Origin: Kangiella sediminilitoris
GTDB lineage: Bacteria; Pseudomonadota; Gammaproteobacteria; Enterobacterales; Kangiellaceae
NCBI RefSeq assembly: GCF_001708405.1
Contig: NZ_CP012418.1
Span: 1,178,001 to 1,242,000 of the forward strand
Length of the DNA: 64,000 nucleotides
Direction of reading: 5' to 3'
The position numbers and the translations under genes are program-made. Each line of letters begins with the position of its first letter. Position 1 is the stretch's first letter. The notes beneath the pieces are model-generated. The model had not been told where the DNA came from. It searched no databases and saw only the letters and a list, made by a program, of their open reading frames with translations. Shown here piece after piece: positions 14,638-29,754 of the stretch.

Positions 14638-15423
14638 ATGTTGATTGATTCGCACTGTCACCTGGACCGTCTTGATTTAGAACCGTTCGATGGAAAACTC
14701 GAAGGGGCACTGGATAACGCCCGAGAAAACGGCGTAAAACACATGCTCTGTGTATGCATTACACTGGATAAGTTTAATGACGTTCTTACCATCGCCCAGC
14801 AGCATGACGACATATCCTGTTCCGTTGGCGTGCACCCGCTTTACGATGGCGTAAAAGACACCGATATCGACGCATTAATCGAAAACTCCAAGCACTCGGA
14901 AGTGGTCGCCATTGGCGAAACCGGGCTGGATTATTTCTATCATAAAGATCCTGAAAACCATAAATTACAGCAGGATAGCTTCCGCAAGCATATCCGCGCT
15001 GCTAACGAAGTGGGTTTACCGATAATCGTCCACACGCGTGACGCACGCGAAGATACCTTAAATATTCTTAAAGAAGAAAACGCACAAAAGTGCGGCGGCG
15101 TACTGCACTGCTTTACGGAAAGTCTTGAGATGGCAGAAGAAGCAATGGAACTTGGCTTTTATGTATCTTTTTCTGGAATCGTCACGTTCAAGAATGCAGA
15201 AGAGTTACGCGAAACCTGCCGTAAAATACCGTTAGACAGACTGCTTATCGAAACGGATTCCCCATACCTTGCCCCAGTACCTCACCGAGGTAAATCCAAC
15301 CAGCCAGCCTTTGTCAAAAATGTCGGACAGTTTGTCGCAGACCTGCATGGTCTCAGCTACGACGAGCTTTGCCAGATAACTGCGAAAAACTATCAGGACT
15401 TATTTTCGAAGTCTAAGATTTAA
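14638..15423 (+). CDS. ycfH: TatD-family metal-dependent hydrolase, YcfH-like (261 aa)
   Basis: TIM-barrel metallo-hydrolase, a likely 3'-5' deoxyribonuclease or deacylase of the TatD family. The metal ligands are visible: His6 and His8 in SHCHLD, Glu in AIGETGLDY, His in IIVHTRDA, His in LHCFTE and Asp in LIETDSPYLAPVPHRG. Length is typical. It closes the tmk-holB-pilZ-tatD block. The exact substrate of YcfH proteins is not settled. Confidence 0.93.
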   Translation: MLIDSHCHLDRLDLEPFDGKLEGALDNARENGVKHMLCVCITLDKFNDVLTIAQQHDDISCSVGVHPLYDGVKDTDIDALIENSKHSEVVAIGETGLDYFYHKDPENHKLQQDSFRKHIRAANEVGLPIIVHTRDAREDTLNILKEENAQKCGGVLHCFTESLEMAEEAMELGFYVSFSGIVTFKNAEELRETCRKIPLDRLLIETDSPYLAPVPHRGKSNQPAFVKNVGQFVADLHGLSYDELCQITAKNYQDLFSKSKI

Positions 15424-15506
15424 AGGTGGTTCGGATTTTTTATAAGTAAGATCTAAAGCCGCCAATGAAGGCTTGGGTTATATCTAGGTAAAAAGGTCAG
15501 GTGCTC

Positions 15507-15520
15507 CTAGGGGTTTTCCC
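15507..15520 (+). promoter_or_regulatory. CTAGGGGTTTTCCC motif, site 1 (first subtilase)
   Basis: The 14-mer CTAGGGGTTTTCCC ends 66 bases before the ATG of the first S8 protease. The identical 14-mer stands 63 bases before the third one. The core reads as an imperfect inverted repeat TAGGG-N5-CCC. A TATACC box (15532-15537) lies just downstream. Confidence 0.6.
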
Positions 15521-15586
15521 CCGTTTCAATTTATACCAATTCTTTTCATAGTGAGGTTGTTAAATAAATAACGACAGGGTCAGACT

Positions 15587-17647
15587 ATGAAAACTCAATA
15601 TAAATTACTTTCTGCTTGTGTACTTACGGCTTTAGCGGGTGGGGCGCAGGCTGATGCAATAATCGGTCCAGAGCTGGAAGCAATGTTACCAACATTGCTG
15701 GATAGCCAAAAGGTTATTGTTACTACTCACAACAAAGAAGATTTGAACTCCGTTATGTTGCAGGTGGCGAGTCCTTATATCGCCATGAAAGAACTGCCGA
15801 TGGCTGGTACTACGCTGAATAAACTTCAGATCGAAAGTCTTGCCAAAGATTCTCGAGTGAAAAGTATCTATTACGATAAGCCGCTTAAATACTATAACTA
15901 CACTTCAGGTGAAATCACCGGCGGTCACTATGTTCATGATGTAGAAGGAGTGACAGGACAGGGGGTTACTGTTGCTGTGCTGGATTCTGGTGTGGATGGT
16001 TCTCACCCTGATCTGGAGTTTGGTTCTAAGACTATCGAGAACGTCAAAATTCTTGGTGATTTAGACCTGGCTACTGGCAGCAACTATTATCTCGAAGGCG
16101 TGATTAATACTGATACCAGCTCAGGTCACGGCTCTCACGTAGCAGGTACTGTTGCAGGTACTGGCGTGATGTCTGCTGATGATTCTCGTCGTGCTAACTA
16201 TCATGATGGTATTGCTCCAGACGCGAAGCTTGTTGGTTTAGGTGCAGGTGAAGCGATTTCAATTTTATTCGCTATTGGTGGCTTCGATTACGCTATCGGT
16301 AATAGAGACCGTTTGGGTATCGACATTATTACTAACAGCTGGGGCGCTTCTGGTGGTGGTGCATTCGATCCAAACAACCCAATCAACCAGGCATCTTATG
16401 ACGCCTATCAGAAAGGCATGATTGTGACGTTTGCTGCGGGTAATGATGGTCCATCTGACGACACTATTAACCCATATGCAATCGCTCCCTGGGTAATCAA
16501 TGTTGGTGCTGGTAACCCTGAAAAAGGGTTAACTGACTTTTCAAGCCGCGGCGTTGAAGGCGATACCTTCAAGTTCGTTGACATCGTAGCTCCGGGTGAT
16601 GGCATTGTTTCAACACGTGCGTTGAATACTCCTCTTCCTGCACTGGGTCCAATTATTGATGAAGAAAACCCTGACTACTACGTTTACTACGCCAGCATGA
16701 GCGGTACTTCGATGGCGACGCCATTCGTTGCCGGTGTGGCTTCGCTGTTGCTGGAAGTTAACCCAAACCTTTCACCAGACCAGGTTGAAGACATTATCCG
16801 AGACAGTGCTGATGAAATGCCGGGCTATAAATTCCACGAAGTCGGCGGGGGTTACATCAACGTTAAAACCGCTGTTGAGATGGCTCGAAACACCGTAGGT
16901 GCTCGCTCTGAATTTATGAGTGGTCAAACGGAATGGTCTAGTCAGGGCTTCTGGAATGATGCTAACCAGTCTGACGCTAAGATTGATTACATTGGTAAAT
17001 GGCAAACCAGAACTTCTGATGTAGGCGTAGAAGGTGATTTCATCAAAGCCCGTAAATCAGGCTCTACAGCAACCTTCGATATTATCGGCGAAAACTTGCA
17101 GTTACTTTATGTCGCCAATAATCGCGGTGGTCGAGCTGAATTGTTCGTCGATGGTGAGAACAAGGGTGTTGTTGACTTTTACTCTACGAGTGAAGAAGCG
17201 CGTGCTTTCGCCGTAAGAGGTCTTGAAGCCAATGCGGTACACACGGTACAGCTAAAACATCTAGAAGGTGAAATTAATCTTGACGCAGTCAAGGTTGATG
17301 GCCAGCTGATCGATAATGGCTTGAGCATCACCACTGAAAACTTCATGTTCGAGGGCACCATGGGGCCATCAGCAGAGAACCTGGAGTTCCAGGACTTCCC
17401 AATCTCAGTAAGTGCCGACGCAGTACTGATCGAGGCGAGCCTGACCTGGGAAGGTGTGGCTGACCTTGACTTCGAACTATTGAACTCTGCGGGAGAGCAG
17501 GTAGCCAGCAGCGCAAGCCTGAGTAATCCGGAGGTTCTTTCTTACGCGCCAGAACAGGCAGGCGATTATGTATTGCGTGTGAATGGATACGCAAGTGTTG
17601 TGACTAACTTCCAAATCGATGCGACTGTATCCAGCTTGGTTGAATAG
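15587..17647 (+). CDS. Secreted S8 subtilisin-like protease 1 (686 aa)
   Basis: Exported serine protease. Signal peptide about residues 1-22 (hydrophobic, ending GGAQA). An I9-like propeptide follows to about 105. The catalytic domain has Asp133 (VAVLDSGVDGSHPDL), His181 (GHGSHVAG), the oxyanion Asn286 (AAGNDG) and Ser375 (SGTSMATPF), all intact. A beta-rich region of about 100 residues and a C-terminal pre-peptidase-like domain (DLDFELLNSAGEQVASS, AGDYVLRVNG) end the protein. It lacks the SLH-like tail of its two paralogues. A CTAGGGG motif stands upstream and a strong hairpin downstream. Physiological substrate unknown. Confidence 0.92.
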   Translation: MKTQYKLLSACVLTALAGGAQADAIIGPELEAMLPTLLDSQKVIVTTHNKEDLNSVMLQVASPYIAMKELPMAGTTLNKLQIESLAKDSRVKSIYYDKPLKYYNYTSGEITGGHYVHDVEGVTGQGVTVAVLDSGVDGSHPDLEFGSKTIENVKILGDLDLATGSNYYLEGVINTDTSSGHGSHVAGTVAGTGVMSADDSRRANYHDGIAPDAKLVGLGAGEAISILFAIGGFDYAIGNRDRLGIDIITNSWGASGGGAFDPNNPINQASYDAYQKGMIVTFAAGNDGPSDDTINPYAIAPWVINVGAGNPEKGLTDFSSRGVEGDTFKFVDIVAPGDGIVSTRALNTPLPALGPIIDEENPDYYVYYASMSGTSMATPFVAGVASLLLEVNPNLSPDQVEDIIRDSADEMPGYKFHEVGGGYINVKTAVEMARNTVGARSEFMSGQTEWSSQGFWNDANQSDAKIDYIGKWQTRTSDVGVEGDFIKARKSGSTATFDIIGENLQLLYVANNRGGRAELFVDGENKGVVDFYSTSEEARAFAVRGLEANAVHTVQLKHLEGEINLDAVKVDGQLIDNGLSITTENFMFEGTMGPSAENLEFQDFPISVSADAVLIEASLTWEGVADLDFELLNSAGEQVASSASLSNPEVLSYAPEQAGDYVLRVNGYASVVTNFQIDATVSSLVE

Positions 17648-17666
17648 CATATAGCACGACAATACC

Positions 17667-17685
17667 GGCCCCTAAAAATGGGGCC
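17667..17685 (+). repeat. Perfect GC-rich hairpin after subtilase 1
   Basis: GGCCCC-N7-GGGGCC stem-loop, 19 bases after the stop codon. No T-run follows, so a 3'-end-stabilising hairpin is as likely as a terminator. Confidence 0.5.
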
Positions 17686-17697
17686 AACCTATTCAAA

Positions 17698-17736
17698 ACT
17701 CAAAGAGCTAGGGGATTTCCCTTAGCTTTTTTGAGT
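17698..17736 (+). terminator. Terminator-like hairpin after subtilase 1, containing motif site 2
   Basis: ACTCAAA-AGCTA-GGG pairs with CCC-TAGCT-TTTGAGT around loop GATTT, with single-base bulges, and a six-T run lies in the right arm. This reads as an intrinsic terminator for the first protease gene. Confidence 0.6.
17708..17721 (+). promoter_or_regulatory. CTAGGGGATTTCCC motif, site 2 (second subtilase)
   Basis: Matches sites 1 and 3 at 13 of 14 positions and continues CTTAG, giving TAGGG-N5-CCCTTA. It ends 95 bases before the chosen ATG of the second protease. It lies inside a terminator-like hairpin, so its role as an operator is less certain than for the other two. Confidence 0.4.
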
Positions 17737-17816
17737 GTTTGCCCCGGTAGTAATCAAGTCATAAATGACTTGGAATGAAAGGGCACATGAAAATGATTGA
17801 ATTTCGGAGACAGGTA

Positions 17817-20282
17817 ATGAATATGAAACTAAAGAAGCTAGCCCTTTCAGCGGCACTTGCTGGTTTTAGTTTAAATGCTGCGGCAGAAGCTGTAATCGGC
17901 TCTGAGCTGGAGCAGCAACTAAATACCATGAGTCTGACTGATAGCACCATGGCTGTGGTGACTTACGATCAGTTGGACGCAGTTAATACTGAACAACTTC
18001 AAAGCTTATTGAACCTTGGCATTAGCCAAGGTGTTCAATTCAAGTCTTTGCCTATTGTGGGCGTTGTTGCTTCACCAGCCCAAATCGAGCAAATCAGTCA
18101 GATGGATGGCGTACGCTCCGTATTTGCTAACCGAGAACTGGAATATTACAACGCTGAAGCTCGCGAGCTTACAGGCGCTGAAAAGCTTCAGACAACCGAG
18201 TTTAGACAACGTAACGGCATGACTTTTACTGGTAACGGCGTAACGGTCATGGTCAATGATTCCGGTATTGATGCTACGCACGCCGATCTTGAATACGGCA
18301 CAAAAGTTGTGGAAAACGTACAGGCTTTAACTCACGCACAAGCTTTATCGGTTACAGGATTTAGCGGTGCCTGGATTGAAGGTCAGTTAAATACCGATTT
18401 AAACGTCGGTCATGGTACTCACTGTGCCGGTACGGTTGCAGGCTGGGGTACTAACTCTGATGGTAAATACAAAGGTGCGGCTCCTGGTGCTGAACTGGTT
18501 GGTTATGGTTCGGGCGCAGGTCTTTCTATTCTGGATGCACTGGGCGGTTACGATTACGCCCTGACTCATTTGTTTGAGTTCAATTCTCCTATTCGAGTGA
18601 TGAGTAACTCATGGGGTTCAAGTGGTAAATATGAACCAAACGGCCCTATCTCCGTAGCGTCTTACAAAGCTTATAAACTGGGTCTTATTTCTGTATTTGC
18701 AGCAGGTAACTCTGGACCGGGCGAAGACACTCACAATCCATACGCGCAAATCCCTTGGGGCTTGTCGGTGGGAGCTGGTACAAAGCAGGGCACATTAATC
18801 GACTTTTCTTCGCGTGGTAAACGTGATGAAACGGGTGACTTCACTATGCCGGACGGCACTCAGTGGACTTACAGCAATGAAGTATCTATCGTCGCGCCTG
18901 GCGTTGATATTATCTCTACTCGTGCTACGACAAACCTGACTTCTAATGGTGGCGATGCTGATTTAGAAGCCATCGAAACCGAGTATGTGCCTTATTACAC
19001 AATGATTTCAGGCACATCAATGGCTACGCCACACGTGGCAGGTATTATAGCCATGATGTTAGAAGCCAACCCAAATCTAACGCCTTTAGAAACCAAGCGC
19101 ATACTGCAGGAAACGGCAACAAACATGCCCGGTTATGAAAAATGGGAAGTAGGAGCAGGTTATGTTAATGCATACGCTGCAGTAGCCGCTGCTTTGGGTT
19201 ACAACCCTGAGCATAAAGCGACAGTGAATAATCTTAATACATTCAACGGTAACGCCATTGTAATCGCTGATGATAATCCTGAGCCTTTTGAGGTTCTATA
19301 TGCGCCAGCAGGCGAGCCAGATGTTTATGAGTTTGAAGTGGGTCCTGACGATGTCTGGATTTCTGCATCTGCTGAGTCACTGGCGAATACCGTAAAGTTA
19401 AGACTGGAAGCTCCGGACGGCACAGAGTACTTTGGTAATCTAACTCTGCCAGTATTAACCACTAGCATGCGCGTATCAGCTCCGGCTCAGGTTGGTACCT
19501 GGAAATTATCAGCATACGGCTTAACGTCATTATCTGGCGTCGAGGCGGATCCAACGGGCACAACCAATGGTCCGGGTCTGCCTGAGTCTATCAGCGGCGA
19601 GATCAGTATCTTCAAATCAGGTGGCTATGAAGGTCTGGACGATATTGGTGGTCATCCTGCTGAAGCGGCTATTCAGTATGCGACGAGCGAACGTCTGGTT
19701 GATAGCTTTAATGACAAGTTCTTCCGTCCAGACAGAGCGCTTAAGCGTAAAGAACTGGCTCAGTATCTTGTAATGGGCGCAGCAGTACGTCAACACCGTG
19801 ATCTGTTGAACGAGCCTGTTGTTAGCTTTAGTGACGTTGGTATCGAAGCGGCAGCATTTGCCGAGTCAGCGGCAGCTCCTGGCGGTGCTCTAAAAGATAG
19901 AGTTCAAGAGCAGCAACCGGTCATGATGACTGAGGGTGATAAGTTTAACCCTAATGCAAACGTTAGTCGTGCTGAACTGGCTTACTCATTAGTTCAGTCT
20001 CTTGGTCTAGAAAGTGAAGCACAGGCATTCTCAGGTGACATCACTGTAGACTATCAGGGTCAGAGCATTGTGGTTCGTGATCAAGATAGTATCCCTGAAG
20101 AGTTAAAAGGCTATGTTCAATTAGCGCTGGACCTGTCTATAGTCGGTGTACGCTATGAGATAGAGCAGGGCCCATTTGACCTTGAGCCTACATTGGTAGC
20201 TTACTTTGAGCCTGAAAGCTCTGTTACTCGAGCTGAGTATGCCGTGTTAATCGGTAGAACGTACGATGCTTACTATCAATAA
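17817..20282 (+). CDS. Secreted S8 subtilisin-like protease 2 with SLH-like C-terminus (821 aa)
   Basis: Exported protease. The start at ATG 17817 (MNMKLKKLALSAAL) is preferred to 17775 because it has GGAGA 6 bases upstream and gives a clean signal peptide ending NAAAEA. Propeptide to about 118. Catalytic residues: Asp148 (VMVNDSGIDATH), His199 (GHGTHCAG), Asn298 (AAGNSG), Ser401 (SGTSMATPH). A beta domain (about 490-600) precedes three SLH-like units at about 607-660, 670-735 and 750-821 (GHPAEAAIQYATSERL, FNPNANVSRAELA, VTRAEYAVL). Close paralogue of the protease at 27111. SLH units usually bind cell-wall polymers; what they bind here is unknown. Confidence 0.9.
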   Translation: MNMKLKKLALSAALAGFSLNAAAEAVIGSELEQQLNTMSLTDSTMAVVTYDQLDAVNTEQLQSLLNLGISQGVQFKSLPIVGVVASPAQIEQISQMDGVRSVFANRELEYYNAEARELTGAEKLQTTEFRQRNGMTFTGNGVTVMVNDSGIDATHADLEYGTKVVENVQALTHAQALSVTGFSGAWIEGQLNTDLNVGHGTHCAGTVAGWGTNSDGKYKGAAPGAELVGYGSGAGLSILDALGGYDYALTHLFEFNSPIRVMSNSWGSSGKYEPNGPISVASYKAYKLGLISVFAAGNSGPGEDTHNPYAQIPWGLSVGAGTKQGTLIDFSSRGKRDETGDFTMPDGTQWTYSNEVSIVAPGVDIISTRATTNLTSNGGDADLEAIETEYVPYYTMISGTSMATPHVAGIIAMMLEANPNLTPLETKRILQETATNMPGYEKWEVGAGYVNAYAAVAAALGYNPEHKATVNNLNTFNGNAIVIADDNPEPFEVLYAPAGEPDVYEFEVGPDDVWISASAESLANTVKLRLEAPDGTEYFGNLTLPVLTTSMRVSAPAQVGTWKLSAYGLTSLSGVEADPTGTTNGPGLPESISGEISIFKSGGYEGLDDIGGHPAEAAIQYATSERLVDSFNDKFFRPDRALKRKELAQYLVMGAAVRQHRDLLNEPVVSFSDVGIEAAAFAESAAAPGGALKDRVQEQQPVMMTEGDKFNPNANVSRAELAYSLVQSLGLESEAQAFSGDITVDYQGQSIVVRDQDSIPEELKGYVQLALDLSIVGVRYEIEQGPFDLEPTLVAYFEPESSVTRAEYAVLIGRTYDAYYQ

Positions 20283-20296
20283 GCGCTGAGAAATGG

Positions 20297-20335
20297 TGCG
20301 AAAAGGAGCAAAAATCTTCCTTTTCGCACAATTTT
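20297..20335 (+). terminator. Hairpin terminator after subtilase 2
   Basis: GTGCGAAAAGGA / TCCTTTTCGCAC, a 12-bp perfect stem with a 10-base loop, followed by AATTTTG. Confidence 0.6.
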
Positions 20336-20432
20336 GCAAAGCAATCTTGCTTTAACGGATAAATATAAGTATTTTGATATACACTGAAGCATTAGTATTA
20401 TTTTTTGCTCTCACACTGCGAGGTCTTACGTT

Positions 20433-21269
20433 ATGTCAGCTTTAAATAAGCGCATTTTTGCAGTTATAATCACACTTTTTGGTTTAATCTATAGCTTTAA
20501 TAGTTTAGCCCAACCTGTTGATATTACTGTTCATGGCAATAAAGTTGAAGCGGTGATCAACCTCACAGGGAACGTTGAAGCTGATTTTACCCTAACTTTT
20601 GAAAACACTGTCGGTCTGACTGCTGATAATGTCGGTATTACCGCTGAATTGGTAGATATTACAGACCTGGCTTTACTCGATCGCTTACCTGATAATTTGA
20701 ACATAAATCTTTTATCAGCCTTTCCGATGATGATTACTGTAGAGCCACCTTCGTCCGGAGGCTTTTCTTTCTCTGGACTAGCAACCGTGGATATCCATAC
20801 TCATAACCTTGAATATACAGCTGGTACTCCTTTGAGATTCTTCAAGGCGCCTTTAGGCGGTGAGTTTAAGGATATTACTGCGACTATGGGCTCTGGAAGT
20901 TACCGAGCACGTGGTACTACGGGAAAATTCTCACAATTTATAATTGTTGCGGATCTGCGACTGCCTATTGCCGTAGTTAATACGAAATTTACTCGTTTGA
21001 GTAATGAACTAACTGCATTTTCAACGCAAATTGACCCTATCGTCTACAACGACCTTAATGCCCAGCTTGCTGATATTCAGCAACTGATTCAACAGCAGGA
21101 TTATGTTTTAGCAAGTAATAAGGTTGATGAGTTCAGCCGTACGGTTGAACAAAATCGTGGAACTAAGATTCCAGATGTATGGCGTTCAAGTCGTGATGTC
21201 GATAATGTTGCTGGTGAGCTAATAGCGCTTGCCAATACCTTACGCTTTAGTTTACGCCTCGTTAACTAG
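20433..21269 (+). CDS. Secreted protein of unknown function (278 aa)
   Basis: I do not recognise the family with confidence. A signal peptide (about residues 1-26, ending SLAQ) leads into a beta-rich domain of about 140 residues (PVDITVHGNKVEAVINLTGN). A C-terminal helical segment (about 185-278) has repeated Leu and Ile positions (YNDLNAQLADIQQLIQQQ, ASNKVDEF), reminiscent of FIMAH-type helical tails. GAGGT lies before the ATG. It starts a run of same-strand genes leading through the FHA-GAF protein, kinase and two-component pair, with 16 bases to the next gene. It may be a sensed or anchoring component of that system; this is inference from position only. Confidence 0.7.
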   Translation: MSALNKRIFAVIITLFGLIYSFNSLAQPVDITVHGNKVEAVINLTGNVEADFTLTFENTVGLTADNVGITAELVDITDLALLDRLPDNLNINLLSAFPMMITVEPPSSGGFSFSGLATVDIHTHNLEYTAGTPLRFFKAPLGGEFKDITATMGSGSYRARGTTGKFSQFIIVADLRLPIAVVNTKFTRLSNELTAFSTQIDPIVYNDLNAQLADIQQLIQQQDYVLASNKVDEFSRTVEQNRGTKIPDVWRSSRDVDNVAGELIALANTLRFSLRLVN

Positions 21270-21285
21270 AATAGGTAATGTTGTT

Positions 21286-22188
21286 ATGCCAGCCAGAATA
21301 ACCGCCTGTTATCCTGAACAGCCAGCGATGGAGAGTTTTTTATTTGATGACTCTCTATATAAGCTAGGTCGTAGCCAAGGTTGTGATGTCGTTCTAAGCC
21401 ATCCCAGTGTTTCTCGACAACATGCAACTCTCGATCAACATCAGGGTGTGTGGCAGGTGCATGATAGCCTCAGTGCCAACGGCCTAAGAGTCAATGGTAA
21501 AAAAGTAACCGATGTCGCACTGAGAGCTAACGATATAATTACTGTCGGTGAAATCGATTGTTTATTTGAGGTGAAAACAGCTGAGCAGATTGAAGCCATC
21601 AATGCTCACAATCAGTGGAGAGTTGAGCAATCTCGAAAGTCTTTTAATAAGATTGCCCAGCAATCATTATCCAAAGCTTTGGATGAGCAACTGTTTTCTT
21701 TGCTTAATTTAACTGGCACTCAAAGAGGTCTGGTTATGTTAGGAACTAAACCAGAGTCACTTTCGGTCTGTGCTGTAAAGGGTATGTCTGAAGACGACTT
21801 TAATAACAAGTCGTTTGAAGGTAGTGTCGGTGCTATGAGAAGGGCGCTTAGCCAAAGCGCTCCGGTTATAGCTATGGATACGCAGCTCGATAAACACTTA
21901 TCAAGCAGAGAGAGTATCCAACGAAAAAAAATTGCGGCTCTGGCATGTATCCCACTTATAACCGATAACAACCTTATTGGTGTGGTGTACGTTGACAGTC
22001 ATGAGGCTAACAAAGTTCTTACCGAGTTAGATCTCGAAATTCTCAACCTGATTGCAAAACAGATCAAAATAAATTCAGAAGCTATTGTTTTACAAAATAA
22101 AATATCTGCTATATTAGATGATATGCCGGAACAAGTACTTGCGAAAAAACAGATTCTAAAATCGCAAGTACCTCTCGCGGTTCATTAG
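21286..22188 (+). CDS. FHA-GAF domain protein (300 aa)
   Basis: Cytosolic two-domain signalling protein. The FHA domain (about residues 20-97) has the phosphothreonine-binding signature: Gly28-Arg29, Ser43-Arg44-x-His46 and Asn65-Gly66. A linker and a GAF-like domain follow (about 130-290; IAALACIPLITDNNLIGVVYVDS). The start is ATG 21286 (MPARITACYP), because an upstream TTG would overlap the previous gene by 41 bases and add nothing FHA-like; AGGTAATG lies just before. Its neighbour is a Ser/Thr kinase, so it probably reads kinase-made phosphothreonine. Family roles are well known; this partnership is inferred. Confidence 0.88.
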   Translation: MPARITACYPEQPAMESFLFDDSLYKLGRSQGCDVVLSHPSVSRQHATLDQHQGVWQVHDSLSANGLRVNGKKVTDVALRANDIITVGEIDCLFEVKTAEQIEAINAHNQWRVEQSRKSFNKIAQQSLSKALDEQLFSLLNLTGTQRGLVMLGTKPESLSVCAVKGMSEDDFNNKSFEGSVGAMRRALSQSAPVIAMDTQLDKHLSSRESIQRKKIAALACIPLITDNNLIGVVYVDSHEANKVLTELDLEILNLIAKQIKINSEAIVLQNKISAILDDMPEQVLAKKQILKSQVPLAVH

Positions 22189-22262
22189 AAACCATAATTG
22201 TATAAGCGGTTGTCATAAGACTAGAGCCTAGCAGTGGCACTAAGCCTAGGGAGAGCAGATAG

Positions 22263-25200
22263 ATGGGTCATAATGACTTAGATCCTAAGACTAAGTCTAA
22301 TTCTCTAAAAGAGACACAGGTTTTAAGAGAGCTTCATACTTTAAACCCAGGCACTTTGCTAATTGGTCGTTTCGAAATACTCTCAAAGCAGGGTTGCGGC
22401 CGTTATGGGTGTGTCTACAAAGCCAAAGACCGACAACTTGATTCTTTTGTCGCTATAAAGGTCTTACATCAGCATTTACTAAATGAACAGGCAATTCAGA
22501 GCTTCAAAAATGAAATCCTGATCCTTAGACAGTTATCCCATCAAAATATCGTTCGTGTCCATGAGTATTATCAGGATGAAGAGACTCATTTCATTACCAT
22601 GGACTGGATTGACGGTAAAAGCCTGACTGATTTGATTAACTCTCAGTCAACAGGATTCCCTGTTAAAAAAGCCCTGGGTTATATGCAGCAGGTTTTAGAT
22701 GCTCTTCTTGTAACTGAACAAAAAGGTATTAGTCATTGCGATTTAAAGCCTGAAAATATTTTAGTTGATAATGAAGAACGAGTTTATGTTGCTGACTTTG
22801 GTGTCGCCTCAGCACTGAGCGATACCGAGGAAGAGAGTATTCACGGAACACCCGTATATGCAAGTCCCGAATATTTAGAGCTTGGCCAGATAAATAAAAC
22901 TACGGATACTTATTCTGTAGGAGTGATACTTTATGAGTTAATCACGGGTCATACTCCGTTTTCCAGTTCTACTATCAACGATCTTCTACAAGAAAAGAAG
23001 CGTGAAACCTTTAATGGGTTACCAAAAAAAGCTGCCGGTTCTGAATTATCGTCATTAGTTTCAAGCTGCCTGGCAGCGGAGCCAAAAAGAAGACCCCAAA
23101 GCCTGGCAAGCCTGTCGGAAAGAATTGCGCAATTAGTCAACGAAACGCCAAAGCGCAACAGGATAAGTTATGGCTATCTGAGTTTAGCAGCTATATTTTC
23201 TGTAGTTATTATTGGCAGTTTTTATTTATTACAGAAAGAAGATACAAGGCTTTCAGTTTCTGCCGAACAAAAGCAAATGGCTAAGCAGGGCTTAGCTATC
23301 TTGCCTTTTAAAACTGAAGCCATGTCAAATCAACTCTGGCTTACTCAGGGCCTACCATCAGTTTTATCTCAAGAGCTTTCTCAAGCTCCTGATCTACGAG
23401 TAGTCGGTACAGCCAGAACCAAGCGAACAATGGATCTGCTTGGGTACTCTCGGGATTTAAGCGACCAAAAGTTTGTTACTCTCAGCGAACTATTGCAGAC
23501 TCCGGTTTTTCTCGATACTTCTATTATTCTCATAGGACCTAATAAGTATCGACTGAAGGCCGAAGTAGTAGAAGTTACTGGTAATAATATTAGTAGAACC
23601 CAGCTGCTTGAACTCCAGTCCTCTGAACAGGAGTTTTCTAAGGAACTCAAACAGCTAACGGAATCCCTCAATACCTTTTTCAGTTTGTCCAACATCACCG
23701 ATCAGTTGTTAATGCCTGAGGGCTTATCGATACAAAAATGGTCTGAGCTTGAGGTGTTGATAAAGGATGGTAAGCTCGCACGCGCCAAGAAACAGCTAGA
23801 AAGCTTAATTAATAATTACCCTGAATTTGCCCAGGCTCACTTTCTATTAGGTGAAGTGTTGTTAAAAAGTGGAGAGGAACAAGAGGCTGGTGAGGCATTT
23901 AAAAAAGTTAAGGAGCTTACTGCGCCCAATCAACTTATCCACCAAAAATCTACCATAGAGCAATTCCTTATAGCTGGTGATTTAGAGTCCGCTTCAACTG
24001 TGTATGAAACGATTCTAGAGCGTTTACCCAAGAGAGATGATATCCGGTTTGAATTAGCCCAGCTATATATTAATTTGGAGCAACTGGATAAAGCTGAGAT
24101 AGAGCTCAAGCATATTGTCGAGGAAGATCAAAATCATCCAGTCGCATGGTATGAGTTGTCGAAGGTAGCCATTTGGAAAGGACAGACGGAAAAAGCTGTT
24201 GATGACTACCTGGTTAAAGCTCTGGTCACAGCAAAAAAATTAAAAAATGAACAGCTCAGGGGCGATGTACTGAATGCTTTTGGTGTCGCTTATCACCGTC
24301 TAGGTGAGCTTGATTTGTCTTTGGACTATTACCAACAGGGACTGGAGGTCAGGCAGTCTGTAGGTGATAGCAGAGGTATCGTTACAAGTTTATCTAACTT
24401 GGCATCAATTTATGCGGTTAAGGGACAGTATGACAAAGCTGAACAAAATCTATACCAAGCTATTGAAGTTAACAAGCCTCGCAATGACGCTTTAAAACAG
24501 GCAGATTTGTTTAACGAACTGGGAGTCATAGCCGAGGAACAAGGCCAGTATAAAAAAGCCCTGGAGCATTTTAGGGCATCCCTAAGCATAAGGATGAAGC
24601 TGGATGATGACTGGCTAAAAGCTGAAAGCTTAAATAACGTGGCTTATATTTATTTTTTGCTGTCAGATGAAGAACATGCAACGATTTATTGGGAACAGGC
24701 GAAAAATTATTATGAAAAGGTTAAAGACCCTGTTGGTGTCGTTCGTGTGAATGAAAATGTAGGGCAGTTAAGTTTAAGAAAAGGTGACTGGCAATCTGCG
24801 TTTCAAATATTTTCTCAGGCCAAAGAAAAGTCTGAGTCATTAAGCTTGTTCGAAGAAAGAGTTGTGGCAGAAGCCTATTTGGCTAAATTAGCGTTACTCA
24901 AAGGGAATTTTGAAGCTCCCCTTGAAAAGCTTAAGGAAATCAAGGCTACGCTTAGTGAGAGAGATGATATTAGAGGCCAAATAGAGTTCGGAATCTGGCT
25001 AGCCGATTGGAATATTATTTCTGGTAATTATTCTGAGGCAAGTAGGTTGCTTCAGCTGCTTGAGCCGTTGCTAAGCAAAGAGCATAATCGATCTCAGCAG
25101 ATGATATTTCATGTTTTAAAATCCAAGTTGAAACTCTATCAAGGTGAAAGCGTGAGTCTGGATGAAAGTGATCTTCCAGATGCTGATGGTTTAACCTCGA

Positions 25201-25646
25201 AAGCTTCATTAAAATTGTTATTATTTAAACTGGAAAAAGCTTTGTTCACGAGTGATGTCAGCAAAGCTGAGTTTAATGATCTAGTGGCTGCAATTGAAAG
25301 TTATGATTTAGCACTTCATCAGTTTGCTTTATTAGAGTATCTCCAGCTAAAAGCAATCTACTACATAAAAATAAACGATTATAAAAAACTGGAAGTAAGC
25401 GTGAATCAGCTGCGTGAGTTACGCAAATCACTTGGTTCTCACTGGAGCGACTTTATTTCTGAACGCATTATAAGTAACTATTACCAATTAACCTCAGATG
25501 ATGTTAAAGCACAAGAGTATGGCCAATTGGCTGTATCAAAGTTTAAAGAATTATTAGAAGAGTTGCCCGAAGAGCAGCAAAAAAATCTGATTTCATTGCA
25601 TGGACGTTACATATTTCCAGACGATTTTATGGAGAAACTGCTATGA
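22263..25646 (+). CDS. Transmembrane Ser/Thr protein kinase with TPR repeats (1127 aa)
   Basis: Hanks-type kinase domain about residues 35-295: glycine loop QGCGRYGCVYK, ATP lysine Lys66 (VAIK), catalytic loop HCDLKPEN (Asp160) and DFG 178-180. The usual HRD is HCD, so this is a non-RD kinase. One membrane helix (about 302-323) is followed by a TolB/FlgO-like segment (LAILPFKTEAMSNQLWLTQG). A long TPR region (about 505-1120; for example AYHRLGELDLSLDYYQQGLE, LGVIAEEQGQYKKALEHF) fills the rest. If the kinase is cytosolic, the TPR part is periplasmic. ATGA overlap with the histidine kinase gene means coupled translation. Confidence 0.9.
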   Translation: MGHNDLDPKTKSNSLKETQVLRELHTLNPGTLLIGRFEILSKQGCGRYGCVYKAKDRQLDSFVAIKVLHQHLLNEQAIQSFKNEILILRQLSHQNIVRVHEYYQDEETHFITMDWIDGKSLTDLINSQSTGFPVKKALGYMQQVLDALLVTEQKGISHCDLKPENILVDNEERVYVADFGVASALSDTEEESIHGTPVYASPEYLELGQINKTTDTYSVGVILYELITGHTPFSSSTINDLLQEKKRETFNGLPKKAAGSELSSLVSSCLAAEPKRRPQSLASLSERIAQLVNETPKRNRISYGYLSLAAIFSVVIIGSFYLLQKEDTRLSVSAEQKQMAKQGLAILPFKTEAMSNQLWLTQGLPSVLSQELSQAPDLRVVGTARTKRTMDLLGYSRDLSDQKFVTLSELLQTPVFLDTSIILIGPNKYRLKAEVVEVTGNNISRTQLLELQSSEQEFSKELKQLTESLNTFFSLSNITDQLLMPEGLSIQKWSELEVLIKDGKLARAKKQLESLINNYPEFAQAHFLLGEVLLKSGEEQEAGEAFKKVKELTAPNQLIHQKSTIEQFLIAGDLESASTVYETILERLPKRDDIRFELAQLYINLEQLDKAEIELKHIVEEDQNHPVAWYELSKVAIWKGQTEKAVDDYLVKALVTAKKLKNEQLRGDVLNAFGVAYHRLGELDLSLDYYQQGLEVRQSVGDSRGIVTSLSNLASIYAVKGQYDKAEQNLYQAIEVNKPRNDALKQADLFNELGVIAEEQGQYKKALEHFRASLSIRMKLDDDWLKAESLNNVAYIYFLLSDEEHATIYWEQAKNYYEKVKDPVGVVRVNENVGQLSLRKGDWQSAFQIFSQAKEKSESLSLFEERVVAEAYLAKLALLKGNFEAPLEKLKEIKATLSERDDIRGQIEFGIWLADWNIISGNYSEASRLLQLLEPLLSKEHNRSQQMIFHVLKSKLKLYQGESVSLDESDLPDADGLTSKASLKLLLFKLEKALFTSDVSKAEFNDLVAAIESYDLALHQFALLEYLQLKAIYYIKINDYKKLEVSVNQLRELRKSLGSHWSDFISERIISNYYQLTSDDVKAQEYGQLAVSKFKELLEELPEEQQKNLISLHGRYIFPDDFMEKLL

Positions 25647-26365
25647 CAGGTAATGATGATATTACTGAAATGTTGAATGCTCTAAGTATGAAGCAGAGTC
25701 AGCTCGCTGAAAGCTTAGTGGCAGGTAACACGCAAATGCGTAGCTTGGCTAAGCGTGTATGGAAAGTACAGGAAGATGAACGTAAACACATCGCCAGAGA
25801 GCTACATGATGGTGTCGGGCAGCTATTAACCGCATTGATCAACCAGGTCGAACAGACGCTTAAAGACGAAAAGGATGAACGGTTACAGCAATCCCTAAAA
25901 GAAAGTTTAGATCTTGCCAGACAGGCTTTGCATGATACCCGCAAAATCTCTCGTTTGATGCGTCCCAGAATTCTTGATGATCTTGGCCTTGAGGCTGCTT
26001 TGAAGTGGCTACGACGGATTATGCAGGAACAGGAAAACTTAAGCATTGAACTGGAAATGACAATGCAGCAAGAGTTGGATGAAGAAACTCAGACCCTGGT
26101 TTTCAGAATTGTGCAGGAAGCTTTAACTAATGCAATAAAACATGCAAAGGCCAATAATATTAAAGTTGAAGTTGCATCACAATCTACTATTTTACTGGTA
26201 AAGATTATTGATGATGGGATTGGGATGGATAAAGAAAAAGCACTGGGACCAGATGGGTTCGGTCTATCTGCCATGCAGGACAGAGTGGCTGCTTTTGGCG
26301 GTCAGTTGATGATTGATTCATCAGTTGGCAAAGGAACTGAAGTAAAAATGTTGTTAATGGGGTAG
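25643..26365 (+). CDS. Cytosolic NarL-type histidine kinase (240 aa)
   Basis: HisKA_3 sensor kinase of the DegS/NarX/UhpB class. The phospho-acceptor is His55 in ERKHIARELHDGVGQ. The ATPase domain has the N box EALTNAIKHAKA, DDGIGMD and GFGLSAMQDRV. There is no membrane segment and no recognised sensor domain; only a short coiled N-terminus (residues 1-45) precedes the kinase core. Input must therefore come from another protein, and the translationally coupled Ser/Thr kinase and the FHA-GAF protein are the obvious candidates. The response regulator gene begins 5 bases after its stop. Confidence 0.92.
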   Translation: MTGNDDITEMLNALSMKQSQLAESLVAGNTQMRSLAKRVWKVQEDERKHIARELHDGVGQLLTALINQVEQTLKDEKDERLQQSLKESLDLARQALHDTRKISRLMRPRILDDLGLEAALKWLRRIMQEQENLSIELEMTMQQELDEETQTLVFRIVQEALTNAIKHAKANNIKVEVASQSTILLVKIIDDGIGMDKEKALGPDGFGLSAMQDRVAAFGGQLMIDSSVGKGTEVKMLLMG

Positions 26366-26370
26366 CGAGA

Positions 26371-27006
26371 ATGATTCGAGTACTTATTGCTGATGATCAT
26401 ACAATTTTGCGACAAGGTTTGGTTAGCATTCTTGAGAAAGATGATGAGTGCGTTGTAGTTGGTGAGGCAGCAAATGGGCTGGAGGCTCTTGAGAAGGCCC
26501 AGGAGTTATCCCCACAAATAGCAGTTATAGATATTAGTATGCCCGAACTCAACGGGATGGAGGTTGTAAAAAGAATTCACCAAAAATTGCCTCAATGTAA
26601 AGTTCTTGTTCTCACCATGCATGAAGAAGAAGAATACGTCATTCACATGGTCAGAGCGGGTGCTTCAGGCTATTTATTGAAAGATAGTGCCAGTGAGGAA
26701 CTCATTCAGGCAGTAAAAGCCCTTGCCTCAGGGAAAAGTTATTTCAGCCAATATGCAGCGCAGGTATTAGCAAATCAGTACTCACAGCCAGAAGAGTGGA
26801 GCGACCCCTACAAGAATCTAACCAAGCGCGAAAGAGAGGTCTTTCACCTGGTAGTTGACGGGAAAACAACCAAGGAAATAGCCCGGGTTCTGGATATCAG
26901 TGTAAAGACGGCTGAGAACCACCGGGGTAAGGTACTGGAAAAGTTAGGGGTGTCTAACTCTGCTGAGTTAGTTAAATATGCCGCTCAGCATAAGTTGCTG
27001 CTATAA
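26371..27006 (+). CDS. NarL/FixJ-family response regulator (211 aa)
   Basis: Receiver domain (residues 1-120) with the acidic pair Asp8-Asp9, phospho-acceptor Asp54 (VIDISMPELNG), a Thr near 82 and Lys in LLKDSA. The C-terminal LuxR-type helix-turn-helix reads LTKREREVFHLVVDGKTTKE and then ISVKTAENHRGKV. Partner of the adjacent histidine kinase. Such regulators bind short inverted repeats as dimers. The CTAGGGG-N-CCC repeats before the protease genes, one of them immediately downstream of this gene, are the natural candidate sites. Confidence 0.94.
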   Translation: MIRVLIADDHTILRQGLVSILEKDDECVVVGEAANGLEALEKAQELSPQIAVIDISMPELNGMEVVKRIHQKLPQCKVLVLTMHEEEEYVIHMVRAGASGYLLKDSASEELIQAVKALASGKSYFSQYAAQVLANQYSQPEEWSDPYKNLTKREREVFHLVVDGKTTKEIARVLDISVKTAENHRGKVLEKLGVSNSAELVKYAAQHKLLL

Positions 27007-27033
27007 AAAAGCTGGGGATCGTTTCCAATCTGA

Positions 27034-27047
27034 CTAGGGGTTTTCCC
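27034..27047 (+). promoter_or_regulatory. CTAGGGGTTTTCCC motif, site 3 (third subtilase)
   Basis: Identical to site 1 and continuing TAA, so the full inverted repeat is TAGGG-N5-CCCTA. It ends 63 bases before the ATG at 27111. A perfect TATAAT (27056-27061) starts 8 bases downstream, so the motif would cover the -35 region of that promoter. Confidence 0.65.
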
Positions 27048-27110
27048 TAATTCAATATAATTGTCCTACATGTCATCCTTTTTGATGAAATTTCCAAATG
27101 GGTGGCAAAT

Positions 27111-29579
27111 ATGAAAACACAATCCTTTTTTAAATCAAAACCTGTGCAGGGCGCATTGCTTGCGGCTGGCATAGGTCTTTCATCTTTTGGCTTATCGGCA
27201 AAGTCCTTAGGTCCTCATCTATCAGAGACTTTACCAAACGCTTTAGACTCAGAGCAGTTTGAGGTAATTATTACCTTTGAAGGCGATGGTCCAGCGAGTG
27301 AAGTTCAAATTAATGCTCTAGAAAGCTTAGGCATCAATAGAGGCGTTATGCTGCAAAATGTTCCTATGATAGGAACGGTTGCAACAAAACAACAAATTGA
27401 GTCTATTTATGCTCGTGACGATGTTCGTTCAGTTTGGCATAACTCCGAACTTACCTATGATAACAAAGAAGCTACGCAACTTACTGGTGTTGATCGACTG
27501 CGTGCTGATCAGTCAATCCGATTGAATGGTGTTCCTGTATCAGGTAAAGGTATTGGCGTCGTGGTTAACGATTCTGGTGTAGATGGCACTCACTCAGATC
27601 TGAAGTATCCAAACCACGTTGTGCAAAATGTCTTAGCACAGACAAACCTAAACTCTATCGATACCATGTTACCGATTACTTATCAGGAAGATGTTGCAAA
27701 TACGGATTTAGCGGGTGGTCATGGTACTCACGTTGCAGGAACTATTGGCGGCAACGGCAGTATGTCGAGTGGTGAGCAGGAAGGTGTTGCACCCGGAGCT
27801 GATATCATTGGTTATGGATCTGGCGCAGGCCTTTTTATTTTGGATACCCTTGGTGGATTCGATTACGCGCTAACTCACCAGTTCGAGTACAACATTCGAG
27901 TTATTTCTAACTCTTTTGGTAGTACAGGCGATACTGGCACAGACTTTAATCCTGACCACCCGACTAATATCCTGACCAAGAAGCTTAGTGACAATGGCGT
28001 AATTGTTGTGTTCTCAGCAGGTAACTCTGGTAGCGGTGAAGCGACAATTACAGGTAACTTCAAAAAGGCTCCATGGGTTGTGACTGTTGCCGCAGGGGAT
28101 AAAGCTGGAAACTTAGCTGATTTCAGTTCACGTGGTGTGAAAGGCGGTGGCGGTACCGTTGAGGTTGATGGTGAAACTTTTGAGTGGGTAGACCGCCCGA
28201 CGATTACGGCACCGGGTGTTGATATTGTGTCTGCTAGAGCTTCTCTGGGTAGTACATCATTATTAAGTACAGCAGATGACGCAGAAGTATTACCTGCAGA
28301 TCAGGTACCCTACTACACATTATCCAGCGGAACATCCATGTCTGCGCCGCATATTTCAGGCATAGTTGCATTGATGTTAGAAGCAAACCCTTCTCTAAAC
28401 TGGCGTGATGTGAAACGTATCCTGCAAGAAACAGCTACAAATATGCCAGGCCTTGAGCCATGGGAAGCTGGAGCAGGTTATGTTAATGCCTATGCCGCAG
28501 TACAGGCTGCATTGGATGAAGCTAAGGACTTTGGTCAGACTACCAAGTTAAATCGTGATTTTAATGCCAGCGCTAACACCTCTGTGGCGGATGAGTTTCA
28601 AGTCGATGTGGACTATGCTCCGGCGGGAGACAATCCTGGCCAAACGTTTATCGTTGACGAGAATGTATCTTTAATTATGGCTCGCTCTAACGTTGGTGAC
28701 AACACTGTTGCTATCGTATTAACGAGTCCATCAGGCAAACGCTATGGCTCAAGTATTTCCTTGCCAGTACTAGGTCAAAATATCGCAGTAACTGCTCCTG
28801 GTGAAGCAGGTACCTGGAGTGTTAGCGTCAGTGGTATCGGCGGCGTTTCTGGTGTTGATTTAGATCCTGTTGGAGTCACCAATGGTTATGCAGTACCAGA
28901 TACCATTCCGGTGGATGTGAAGTTTGTACAGGTAGATGGATTTACTGGTATTGATGATGTTGCAGGTCATCCTGCCCAGTCTTTTATCGAGTACGCAGTT
29001 AGTGAACAGCTGGTTGATGCATTAGCCGATGGCTTTGCGCCTGATGCTGTAATTTCTCGTGCTCAATTTGCTGACTTCTTGACCTTAGCAGCTGGCATCC
29101 GCCAGTCAAATGATGCCGCAGATTCAAAATTTATCGACGTCAGCAGTAATGTTGCTGCAATTAATGCCGTAACAGATACTGGTTCAGCATTAAAAGATAC
29201 AGCTCAGCAACAGTCACCAGTGATGACATCAGGCAATAGTACCTTTAATCCTGAAGGCGCAGTAACGAAGCTTTCTGCAGCTTATTCATTGGTACAAGCT
29301 CTGGGGTTAGAAGGCGTTGAATCTAGCTATAGCAGTGGTTACCTCACAGCTATTTATGGTGACGAACGGGTGATGGTTGCTGATGCAGGCAATATTCCTG
29401 AGGATCTGAAGCACTATGTGCAACATGCATTAGATTTAGGTCTAATCAACGCTCGATTCGAAATAAACCAGGGTCCGTTCGATTTAGAACCAACAATTAC
29501 TGCCTACTTCGAACCAGGTAAACCTATGACTCGTGCTGGAGCAGCAGTCGCGTTAACACGCTTATTCTCCTCTTACTAG
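27111..29579 (+). CDS. Secreted S8 subtilisin-like protease 3 with SLH-like C-terminus (822 aa)
   Basis: Paralogue of the protease at 17817 along its whole length. The start is ATG 27111, since an in-frame GTG at 27102 lies within the GGGTGG that probably serves as ribosome binding site. Signal peptide about 1-30. Catalytic residues: Asp154 (VVVNDSGVDGTH), His204 (GHGTHVAG), Asn305 (SAGNSG) and Ser409 (SGTSMSAPH). A beta domain is followed by SLH-like repeats (GHPAQSFIEYAVSEQLVDAL, FNPEGAVTKLSAAYSL, PMTRAGAAVALTRL). The repeat residues are more diverged than in protease 2. A strong terminator follows. Confidence 0.9.
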   Translation: MKTQSFFKSKPVQGALLAAGIGLSSFGLSAKSLGPHLSETLPNALDSEQFEVIITFEGDGPASEVQINALESLGINRGVMLQNVPMIGTVATKQQIESIYARDDVRSVWHNSELTYDNKEATQLTGVDRLRADQSIRLNGVPVSGKGIGVVVNDSGVDGTHSDLKYPNHVVQNVLAQTNLNSIDTMLPITYQEDVANTDLAGGHGTHVAGTIGGNGSMSSGEQEGVAPGADIIGYGSGAGLFILDTLGGFDYALTHQFEYNIRVISNSFGSTGDTGTDFNPDHPTNILTKKLSDNGVIVVFSAGNSGSGEATITGNFKKAPWVVTVAAGDKAGNLADFSSRGVKGGGGTVEVDGETFEWVDRPTITAPGVDIVSARASLGSTSLLSTADDAEVLPADQVPYYTLSSGTSMSAPHISGIVALMLEANPSLNWRDVKRILQETATNMPGLEPWEAGAGYVNAYAAVQAALDEAKDFGQTTKLNRDFNASANTSVADEFQVDVDYAPAGDNPGQTFIVDENVSLIMARSNVGDNTVAIVLTSPSGKRYGSSISLPVLGQNIAVTAPGEAGTWSVSVSGIGGVSGVDLDPVGVTNGYAVPDTIPVDVKFVQVDGFTGIDDVAGHPAQSFIEYAVSEQLVDALADGFAPDAVISRAQFADFLTLAAGIRQSNDAADSKFIDVSSNVAAINAVTDTGSALKDTAQQQSPVMTSGNSTFNPEGAVTKLSAAYSLVQALGLEGVESSYSSGYLTAIYGDERVMVADAGNIPEDLKHYVQHALDLGLINARFEINQGPFDLEPTITAYFEPGKPMTRAGAAVALTRLFSSY

Positions 29580-29653: not shown

Positions 29654-29754
29654 ATTTGTTGTGACTTTCACGTCAGACCAGTGGTGAGTTGCTGGTGATA
29701 TTTGCTAATATTGCGTATATTCCAATCATCAATTTCAATAGAGCCATACAGAAT

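Follow-up and report, generated by a model that had tools for sequence, protein, structure and literature searches.

We describe here an island of eight genes in Kangiella sediminilitoris, lying at positions 15,507 to 29,579 of a 64,000-nucleotide stretch (contig NZ_CP012418.1, positions 1,178,001 to 1,242,000 of the forward strand; hereafter the window) of a complete 2.5 Mb genome. Three genes for secreted S8 subtilases flank an operon for a kinase relay. The order is sub1, sub2, a DUF6689 protein, an FHA-GAF protein, a transmembrane Ser/Thr kinase with tetratricopeptide repeats (TPR), a cytosolic HisKA_3 histidine kinase, a NarL/LuxR-type response regulator and sub3, all on the + strand. Judged from its sequence, the island appears to form a single regulatory unit (probability about 0.6), in which a chain of kinases would act on the regulator, the regulator on a palindromic box, and the box on the three subtilase genes. 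The box is likely to be the operator of the regulator, and the secreted proteins the output of the relay. The original prediction, made from the window alone, had already proposed the proteases as output, and this proposal gains independent sequence support from a palindrome that stands 5' of all three genes and follows the relay across orders.

A palindromic box upstream of the subtilase genes

When the upstream regions were aligned, one palindrome, searched as TAGGGGNTTTCCCY, was found before sub1, sub2 and sub3. Exact copies in the whole genome number three, one at each protease promoter; since the same genome holds 12 S8 matches and only three boxes, the box is no general protease signal. 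The 20 Kangiella genomes together hold 25 exact copies; 24 of these are in promoters of island subtilases, and the eight genomes that lack the relay have none. The sole exact copy off the island (G562) lies inside an open reading frame (ORF) near its end and was read as incidental. When 35 Kangiella island promoters were tabulated, the box was exact in 24 and carried one mismatch in 6 and two mismatches in 5.

The columns of the box were tallied at the best-match sites of 37 promoters from Kangiella and Marinicella (12 sub1, 12 sub2 and 13 sub3; G348 and G443, whose boxes have diverged, were left out, and the sub2 start of G513 was set by hand). At these sites no variation was seen in the first T, the GGGG, position 8 (a T) and two C, and the central TTT is near-fixed (37, 33 and 33 of 37). 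In 12/12 sub1 promoters CATAGT comes 25 bases after the box, and a second half-site or full palindrome stands about two helical turns 5' of the box, again in 12/12. By a loose pattern, the upstream half-site was found in 12/13 sub3 promoters and in only 2/12 sub2 promoters. Box, half-site and −10 element are laid out as they would be for an activator that overlaps the −35 region. GC-rich inverted repeats between sub2 and the DUF6689 gene in some species have at least three mismatches and resemble terminators; they were not counted as boxes.

Outside Kangiella, RGGGNTTTCCCY occurs three times in the genome of Marinicella G601, two of these copies being at its two subtilase promoters. It occurs once in G747, at the subtilase promoter, and nine times in G443, two of them at subtilase promoters. 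The reversed controls gave 5, 5, 4 and 1 matches in G601, G747, G443 and G348, respectively.

Ten off-island sites in Kangiella were inspected, namely the exact one and nine with one mismatch, which are a subset of the one-mismatch sites. Of the nine, three fall within ORFs and one (G513 2243160) in a gap between ORFs; the other five are near a lipoprotein or extracytoplasmic function (ECF) sigma factor locus, which is possibly a further member of the regulon. In these five genomes (G562, G560, G513, G500 and G472) the one-mismatch box TAAGGGTTTTCCC[CT] stands near a small lipoprotein gene (L082:1910, L083:1919, L084:2009, L085:2051 and L086:2045), and in G562 the site sits between the ECF sigma operon and a divergent S8 gene.

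The relay and the box in a second order

The DUF6689 family, PF20396, was found in 23 of 200 genomes of a second order, that of G367, with 24 matches, and all 24 loci were inspected. In 21 of them the five relay genes follow in order, those of Marinicella and of G367 (L071) among them. Contig ends cut the regulator in L127 and cut L130 and L133 earlier; L136 holds a DUF6689 fragment only. An S8 gene adjoins the relay in 10 of the 21 loci (L114-L120, L122, L125 and L126) and is divergent from the DUF6689 gene in six; in L121 the S8 match is weak and stands 3 kb off. Marinicella litoralis (L014) shows the Kangiella arrangement minus sub1. In seven of the 24 loci (L127-L133, five of them among the 21), a divergent gene for another secreted protein is found where the subtilase would stand. 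This protein (e.g. L132:14236-15780) has an N-terminal WYDP-HSGHGF motif followed by repeats, and a signal peptide was recognised by eye; the three examples tested gave no Pfam match. Weak relatives of it occur in L134 and L135.

A matrix built from the 35 Kangiella boxes only was then used to scan 23 loci of the second order (Marinicella included, L136 left out). Target promoter regions, upstream of the DUF6689, S8 or alternative secreted gene, made up 5.9% of the bases. The best site fell in a target region in 14/23 loci (binomial P 2.9e-12, a value that treats related loci such as L118-L120 as independent), and 20 column-permuted matrices reached 0 to 10 of 23, all but one giving 5 or fewer. 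In two of the misses, L114 and L124, the site apparently lies just 5' of the target, the ORF start having been set too far upstream; the count was left at 14/23. Regions upstream of the alternative secreted genes were added after boxes had been seen there, and the best-site hits in them all fall in the DUF6689 region too. A simpler scan of the 24 loci gave 19 sites versus 3.3 in mononucleotide shuffles. In several loci of this order the box stands upstream of the DUF6689 gene itself. Among the seven loci with the alternative secreted gene, a box in the shared promoter is the best site in five and the second-best in one; in L129 it is neither. Since the box persists where another secreted protein has taken the place of the protease, it most probably goes with the relay and not with the proteases.

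Linkage of the relay and the subtilases in Kangiella and its order

The original prediction expected the relay genes to keep company with subtilases carrying an SLH tail in related genomes, and this was found to be the case. PF20396 occurs in 10 of 197 genomes of the order, representing 3 of 79 genera, and subtilases close to sub2 (E up to 1e-100) occur in the identical 10, all 19 such matches falling in relay loci; this search scored at most four candidates per genome, on the same genome sample as far as listed. Counted by genera, the linkage has a P of about 1e-5. A full-length relay kinase is present in 12 of the 20 Kangiella genomes, and in every one of them the five relay genes keep their order and adjoin the same subtilases (in G566 sub3 is cut by a contig end). 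The order is also kept in two further genera of the order, G348 and G443. The five genes stand in the same order in 16/16 loci of a first set of relatives, with the kinase and histidine kinase genes overlapping. One of the Kangiella genomes, G472 (L065), is without sub2 and keeps the relay, sub1, sub3 and their boxes, the sub1 box having one mismatch.

In seven relay-less Kangiella genomes tatD and the acyl-CoA dehydrogenase gene are close together with no island gene between them; they are directly adjacent in L074, L075 and L076, and separated by 1.2-4 kb of other sequence in L077-L080. The eighth relay-less genome, G563, is only 55% complete and uninformative. On a tree of the acyl-CoA dehydrogenase from 18 of the 20 Kangiella genomes (G563 and G566 left out), the split between genomes with and without the relay is a single change (support 89/90).

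Proteins of the island

The arrangement of three S8 proteases around a gene run with the domains named above was predicted from the window and is borne out by the Pfam matches (Table 1). The predicted 4-base overlap of the kinase and histidine kinase genes (25643-25646) and the start of the regulator gene 5 bases further on (stop ending at 26365, start at 26371) proved exact.

In the window the Ser/Thr kinase keeps the catalytic motifs VAIK, HCD and DFG. The position of the HRD arginine (the HCD motif lies at 22734-22742) is occupied by Cys, Lys, Gly, Leu or Arg across relatives. Within Kangiella, the kinase is 39-62% identical to that of the window versus 82-93% for the regulator, so that the kinase evolves much faster. 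One transmembrane segment was predicted near residue 305; the cytosolic part has 1 to 7 Cys, and the C-terminal part is free of Cys in 13/16 relatives. For these reasons the 800-residue TPR part is probably periplasmic. A structural model of the sensor region (predicted local distance difference test, pLDDT, 79.9) consists of an alpha/beta domain and then a long TPR superhelix, and a Foldseek search with it returned only generic TPR superhelices (OGT, LGN); therefore, no ligand is suggested. The probably periplasmic region comprises a TolB-like part and the TPR.

The cytosolic tail of the kinase is 35 residues long, and Thr18 is its sole invariant column (16/16 relay kinases). Position 19 is Gln in 14/16, and position 21 is Leu or Ile in 16/16, G367 requiring one alignment gap. 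FHA domains follow the phosphothreonine+3 rule, which the T-x-x-L/I around Thr18 fits. A tail Thr motif was found in 22/22 kinases of a second set, which has two kinases in common with the first; the tails from the other order read T-x-T-G in 19/22, and TATS, TQII and TQKI in the rest. The conserved Arg, Ser and Asn of FHA domains bind phosphothreonine, and the FHA domain of the window retains GR at 28, SRQH at 43 and SANG at 63. The Thr18 tail is thus a good candidate for the FHA docking site, not a proof of one. Twelve other Kangiella kinases were picked as controls; such a tail is missing from 8, KTVVQ is conserved in 3, and the remaining one differs. KTVVQ is found in the N-terminal tail of another Kangiella Ser/Thr kinase family, which has an HSD motif (L146, L147 and L148).

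The histidine kinase has 240 residues, with HisKA_3 from residue 46, followed by HATPase_c, and its motifs ELHDGVGQ, NAIKHA and DDGIG are intact. It was predicted to be without a sensor of its own; indeed no sensor domain was found in the window protein, and the N-terminus is equally short in 16 relatives. Since only a short stretch precedes HisKA_3, another protein probably feeds this kinase. By eye, no conserved Ser/Thr stands out in its N-terminus, and no equivalent of Ser76 of Bacillus DegS is apparent. The regulator, made of Response_reg and GerE domains, keeps a DISM motif and the LuxR helix-turn-helix. Ser/Thr kinase, GAF and HisKA modules are split over three separate genes and do not form one polypeptide.

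The Asp, His and Ser motifs of S8 proteases (DSG[VI]D, GHG[TS]H and GTSM[AS].P) are present in sub1, sub2 and sub3. SLH (PF00395) was found in sub2 and sub3; sub1 is without SLH and has only a PPC match below the cut-off. A DUF6689 gene is present in every relay locus examined, and no other marker of the relay module is as constant as the secreted protein that it encodes. The nearest named relative found, from Kangiella shandongensis, is 82% identical. An AlphaFold model of the protein from three sequences was poor (mean pLDDT 45.8), and therefore no fold search was made with it.

An anti-phage defence system was considered and rejected, because the PADLOC models matched only or mainly the kinase domain, which ends near 280-300; among the 25 of 34 families shown for the kinase, the best stretches all end by residue 338. 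PADLOC gave no match for the DUF6689, FHA and histidine kinase proteins, the regulator not being searched. No type VI secretion gene was recognised by eye among the window ORFs at 11-33 kb, the search being confined to these. The only PF13672 (PP2C) match in the genome adjoins a different Ser/Thr kinase (G000:C1:566332-566877 and 567631-568335).

Proposed mechanism and alternative explanations

In the mechanism that we propose, a periplasmic signal, perhaps involving the DUF6689 protein, would be read by the TPR domain of the kinase. The threonine that the kinase would phosphorylate is most likely Thr18 in its own tail, where, as the invariant T-x-x-L/I suggests, the FHA-GAF protein may dock through its FHA domain. 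The FHA-GAF protein would be the natural, otherwise missing input module of the HisKA_3 kinase and would set its kinase/phosphatase balance, a role suggested by gene order and by the lack of another sensor. That the Ser/Thr kinase and the FHA protein should feed the histidine kinase would agree with the gene order being conserved, with the lack of a sensor in the histidine kinase and with the tail Thr being invariant. By the established chemistry of these families the histidine kinase would phosphorylate the NarL-type regulator. The latter may then bind the observed TAGGGG-N-TTT-CCC boxes and activate the three subtilase genes. In other bacteria the module would use boxes of this kind to drive different secreted proteins. 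In its most general form, the proposal is a dedicated operon chain from a periplasmic-sensing Ser/Thr kinase over an FHA-GAF adaptor to a sensorless histidine kinase, in a module marked by DUF6689 with its own operator class TAGGGG-N-TTT-CCC and exchangeable secreted outputs across gammaproteobacterial orders; it would be a true relay from eukaryote-style to two-component signalling and not cross-talk. We regard this as an even bet.

A number of observations count against the single regulatory unit. One-mismatch boxes total 78 in the 20 Kangiella genomes versus 76 for the reversed control, and therefore only exact copies were relied on; the reversed control given here is that of the one-mismatch counts. 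The tally of box columns on best-match sites inflates their conservation. No box was found upstream of the Kangiella relay operon itself, where autoregulation had been considered. In G348 the island sites have diverged, and none of its 7 copies of RGGGNTTTCCCY is in the island. In the scan of the second order the best site lay outside the target regions in 9/23 loci, and one permuted control reached 10/23. As the Kangiella split is one event on the tree, the genus counts only once and its members are not independent evidence. As to the kinase, two Cys occur in the C-terminal part of the G348 protein, and no transmembrane segment could be called clearly for G367 and G443. The T-x-T-G tail of 19/22 kinases breaks the +3 rule at its first Thr, G348 has lost the FHA Asn, and 3 of the 12 control kinases carry a tail Thr in KTVVQ, which weakens the Thr tail as a unique mark of FHA docking. 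Finally, a phosphomimic form of DegS, the counterpart of the histidine kinase in the closest known system, did not raise protease production in B. subtilis (PMC3033389).

Box and protease regulon may belong to the regulator as one half of an ordinary two-component pair, with the Ser/Thr kinase and the FHA protein forming a parallel branch that has other targets. The step from the Ser/Thr kinase to the histidine kinase is indeed one that we infer, the N-terminus of the histidine kinase offers to the eye no conserved residue resembling Ser76 of DegS, and the sole PF13672 phosphatase stands beside another kinase, none being seen that would reset the relay kinase (other phosphatase families were not searched). 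Such a pair would nevertheless have to do with a histidine kinase that is sensorless in the window and short at its N-terminus in all 16 relatives. It would also leave aside that the five genes stay together in 16/16 and 21/24 loci and that the overlapping genes point to joint expression; we therefore consider it rather unlikely. A different regulator might bind the box, the relay being merely carried along in a protease island. This would agree with the single change of island and relay on the Kangiella tree, by which the linkage could be passive, and with a relay operon that is without a box in Kangiella. It is made improbable by the linkage in 3 of 79 genera, by its recurrence in another order despite different gene orientation and outputs, by the absence of exact boxes from relay-less Kangiella genomes, and by the box 5' of the DUF6689 gene itself in several loci of the other order.

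The palindrome could also be read as a transcription terminator or RNA hairpin, because its GGGG and CCCC can pair and the sub2 copy of the window is followed shortly by TTTTTT. No T-run follows the sub1 and sub3 copies, however, and the would-be loop TTT is near-fixed at the pattern-picked sites. The fixed spacing to CATAGT and the second half-site two helical turns upstream (sub1 and sub3, rarely sub2) also speak against a hairpin, and separate GC-rich hairpins with T-runs stand 5' of the sub2 box in several species; this explanation is scarcely tenable. The direction of the signal might instead be reversed, peptides released by the subtilases being the ligand of the TPR sensor and the relay controlling something else. 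The sensor is a large TPR superhelix, superhelices of this kind often bind peptides, and the lipoprotein/ECF sigma locus has its one-mismatch box in five Kangiella genomes. In the window genome, however, exact boxes occur only at protease promoters, and a feedback by peptides is compatible with control of the proteases and does not replace it, so that we find a reversed direction very doubtful. Preferably, the island is regarded as one unit with the proteases as its output.

Relation to known systems

What connects Ser/Thr kinases to two-component systems has mostly been described as cross-talk, in which the proteins are pleiotropic and encoded apart. The closest precedent is YbdM-DegS-DegU of Bacillus, in which DegS is of the HisKA_3 type and DegU of the NarL/LuxR type, and subtilisin belongs to the DegU regulon; to our knowledge it has no FHA-GAF adaptor, transmembrane TPR kinase, DUF6689 protein or common operon. 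The PpkA-Fha1 pathway of type VI secretion resembles the pair of Ser/Thr kinase and FHA-GAF protein in joining a transmembrane Ser/Thr kinase with a periplasmic part to an FHA protein. It acts post-translationally on the secretion machine, together with the phosphatase PppA, and we know of no histidine kinase, regulator or operator in it. GarA is likewise an FHA protein, and PknG-GarA controls metabolism and not a two-component system. The partners of CroS are IreK, a pleiotropic PASTA kinase, and CroR; we know of neither a dedicated operon nor an FHA adaptor for IreK-CroS/CroR.

YbdM (PrkD), a Hanks kinase of B. subtilis, stimulates the sensorless cytosolic DegS by phosphorylating Ser76 directly (PMC3033389). 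An FHA domain goes unmentioned in the available part of that paper, whereas the present relay has its FHA-GAF protein. In the dual kinases of cyanobacteria of the HstK type (cbSTKIII), Ser/Thr kinase, GAF and histidine kinase are joined as in the relay (PMC2176072). They form one polypeptide, however, with neither FHA nor TPR among the architectures in the part of that paper available, whereas the relay modules are separate proteins. In PknG-GarA, autophosphorylation of the kinase N-terminus creates a docking site, as we propose for the relay, and phosphorylation of CroS at Thr346 is likewise a case of a Ser/Thr kinase modifying a histidine kinase; cross-talk from such kinases to two-component systems is thus already known (PMC12189002). 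Earlier work on Kangiella describes its proteases and a tandem cluster of S8 genes, which may be the present island (PMC6000758); the term 'two-component' has no occurrence in that paper. DUF6689 goes unmentioned in the 5.39 million papers searched, and the combination of relay parts was not found there, bar a single paper on conflict systems. As far as the literature was searched, then, the parts and the dual kinases are known; an operon dedicated to the relay, with FHA adaptor, DUF6689 and an operator class to itself, is not.

Here a single conserved operon unites both kinds of kinase, an FHA protein being placed between the two, and its target promoters may be read from the DNA. How a signal passes from a Ser/Thr kinase to a histidine kinase could thereby be addressed directly with five purified proteins, a single peptide and a short DNA site. 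The relay would also provide a working hypothesis for DUF6689 and an initial way into the regulation of some of the secreted proteolysis that Kangiella lives on (PMC6000758).

Features of the island

The coordinates are collected in Table 1. The start of the FHA-GAF gene is most likely the ATG at 21286 and not the TTG at 21229 of the mechanical ORF list; an ATG was found at the matching place in 15/15 relatives, by a script that prefers ATG. Scans of the window with Rfam (gathering threshold) and for tRNA gave no match.

Table 1. Positions of the island features in the window
Feature	Position	Strand	Remarks
Upstream half-site (CTAGGT)	15484..15489	+	Starts 24 bases 5' of box 1; full second palindrome here in G538, G560, G562, G565 and G566
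Box 1 (TAGGGGTTTTCCCC), putative regulator operator of sub1	15508..15521	+	Exact match
CATAGT, −10-like element	15547..15552	+	25 bases after box 1; invariant in 12/12 Kangiella sub1 promoters
sub1, secreted S8 subtilase without SLH	15587..17647	+	PF00082 E 4.6e-47
Box 2 (TAGGGGATTTCCCT), 5' of sub2	17709..17722	+	Exact match
sub2, secreted S8 subtilase with SLH repeats	17775..20282	+	PF00082 and PF00395
DUF6689 secreted/periplasmic protein, relay operon gene 1	20433..21269	+	PF20396 E 4.4e-107; signal peptide by eye
FHA-GAF protein	21286..22188	+	PF00498 E 6.5e-18, PF01590 E 1.6e-11, scored on the longer TTG frame from 21229
Transmembrane Ser/Thr kinase with TPR region	22263..25646	+	PF00069 E 1.7e-54, TPR families; HCD replaces HRD
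Thr18 codon in T-Q-V-L, candidate FHA docking site	22314..22316	+	Invariant in 16/16 relay kinases
Cytosolic HisKA_3 histidine kinase without sensor domain	25643..26365	+	PF07730 E 4e-13, PF02518 E 1.9e-14
NarL/LuxR-type response regulator	26371..27006	+	PF00072 E 5.6e-31, PF00196 E 5.8e-19
Box 3 (TAGGGGTTTTCCCT), 5' of sub3	27035..27048	+	Exact match
sub3, secreted S8 subtilase with SLH repeat	27102..29579	+	PF00082 and PF00395

The island is bounded by genes that we take, from their sequence, to be tatD (14638-15423) and that of an acyl-CoA dehydrogenase (29689-30933). A box-like site, TAGGTGATTTCCC, is present at 4059-4071 of the window, about 11 kb before the island, and G549 and G487 have similar sites at a distance of about 10 kb from theirs.

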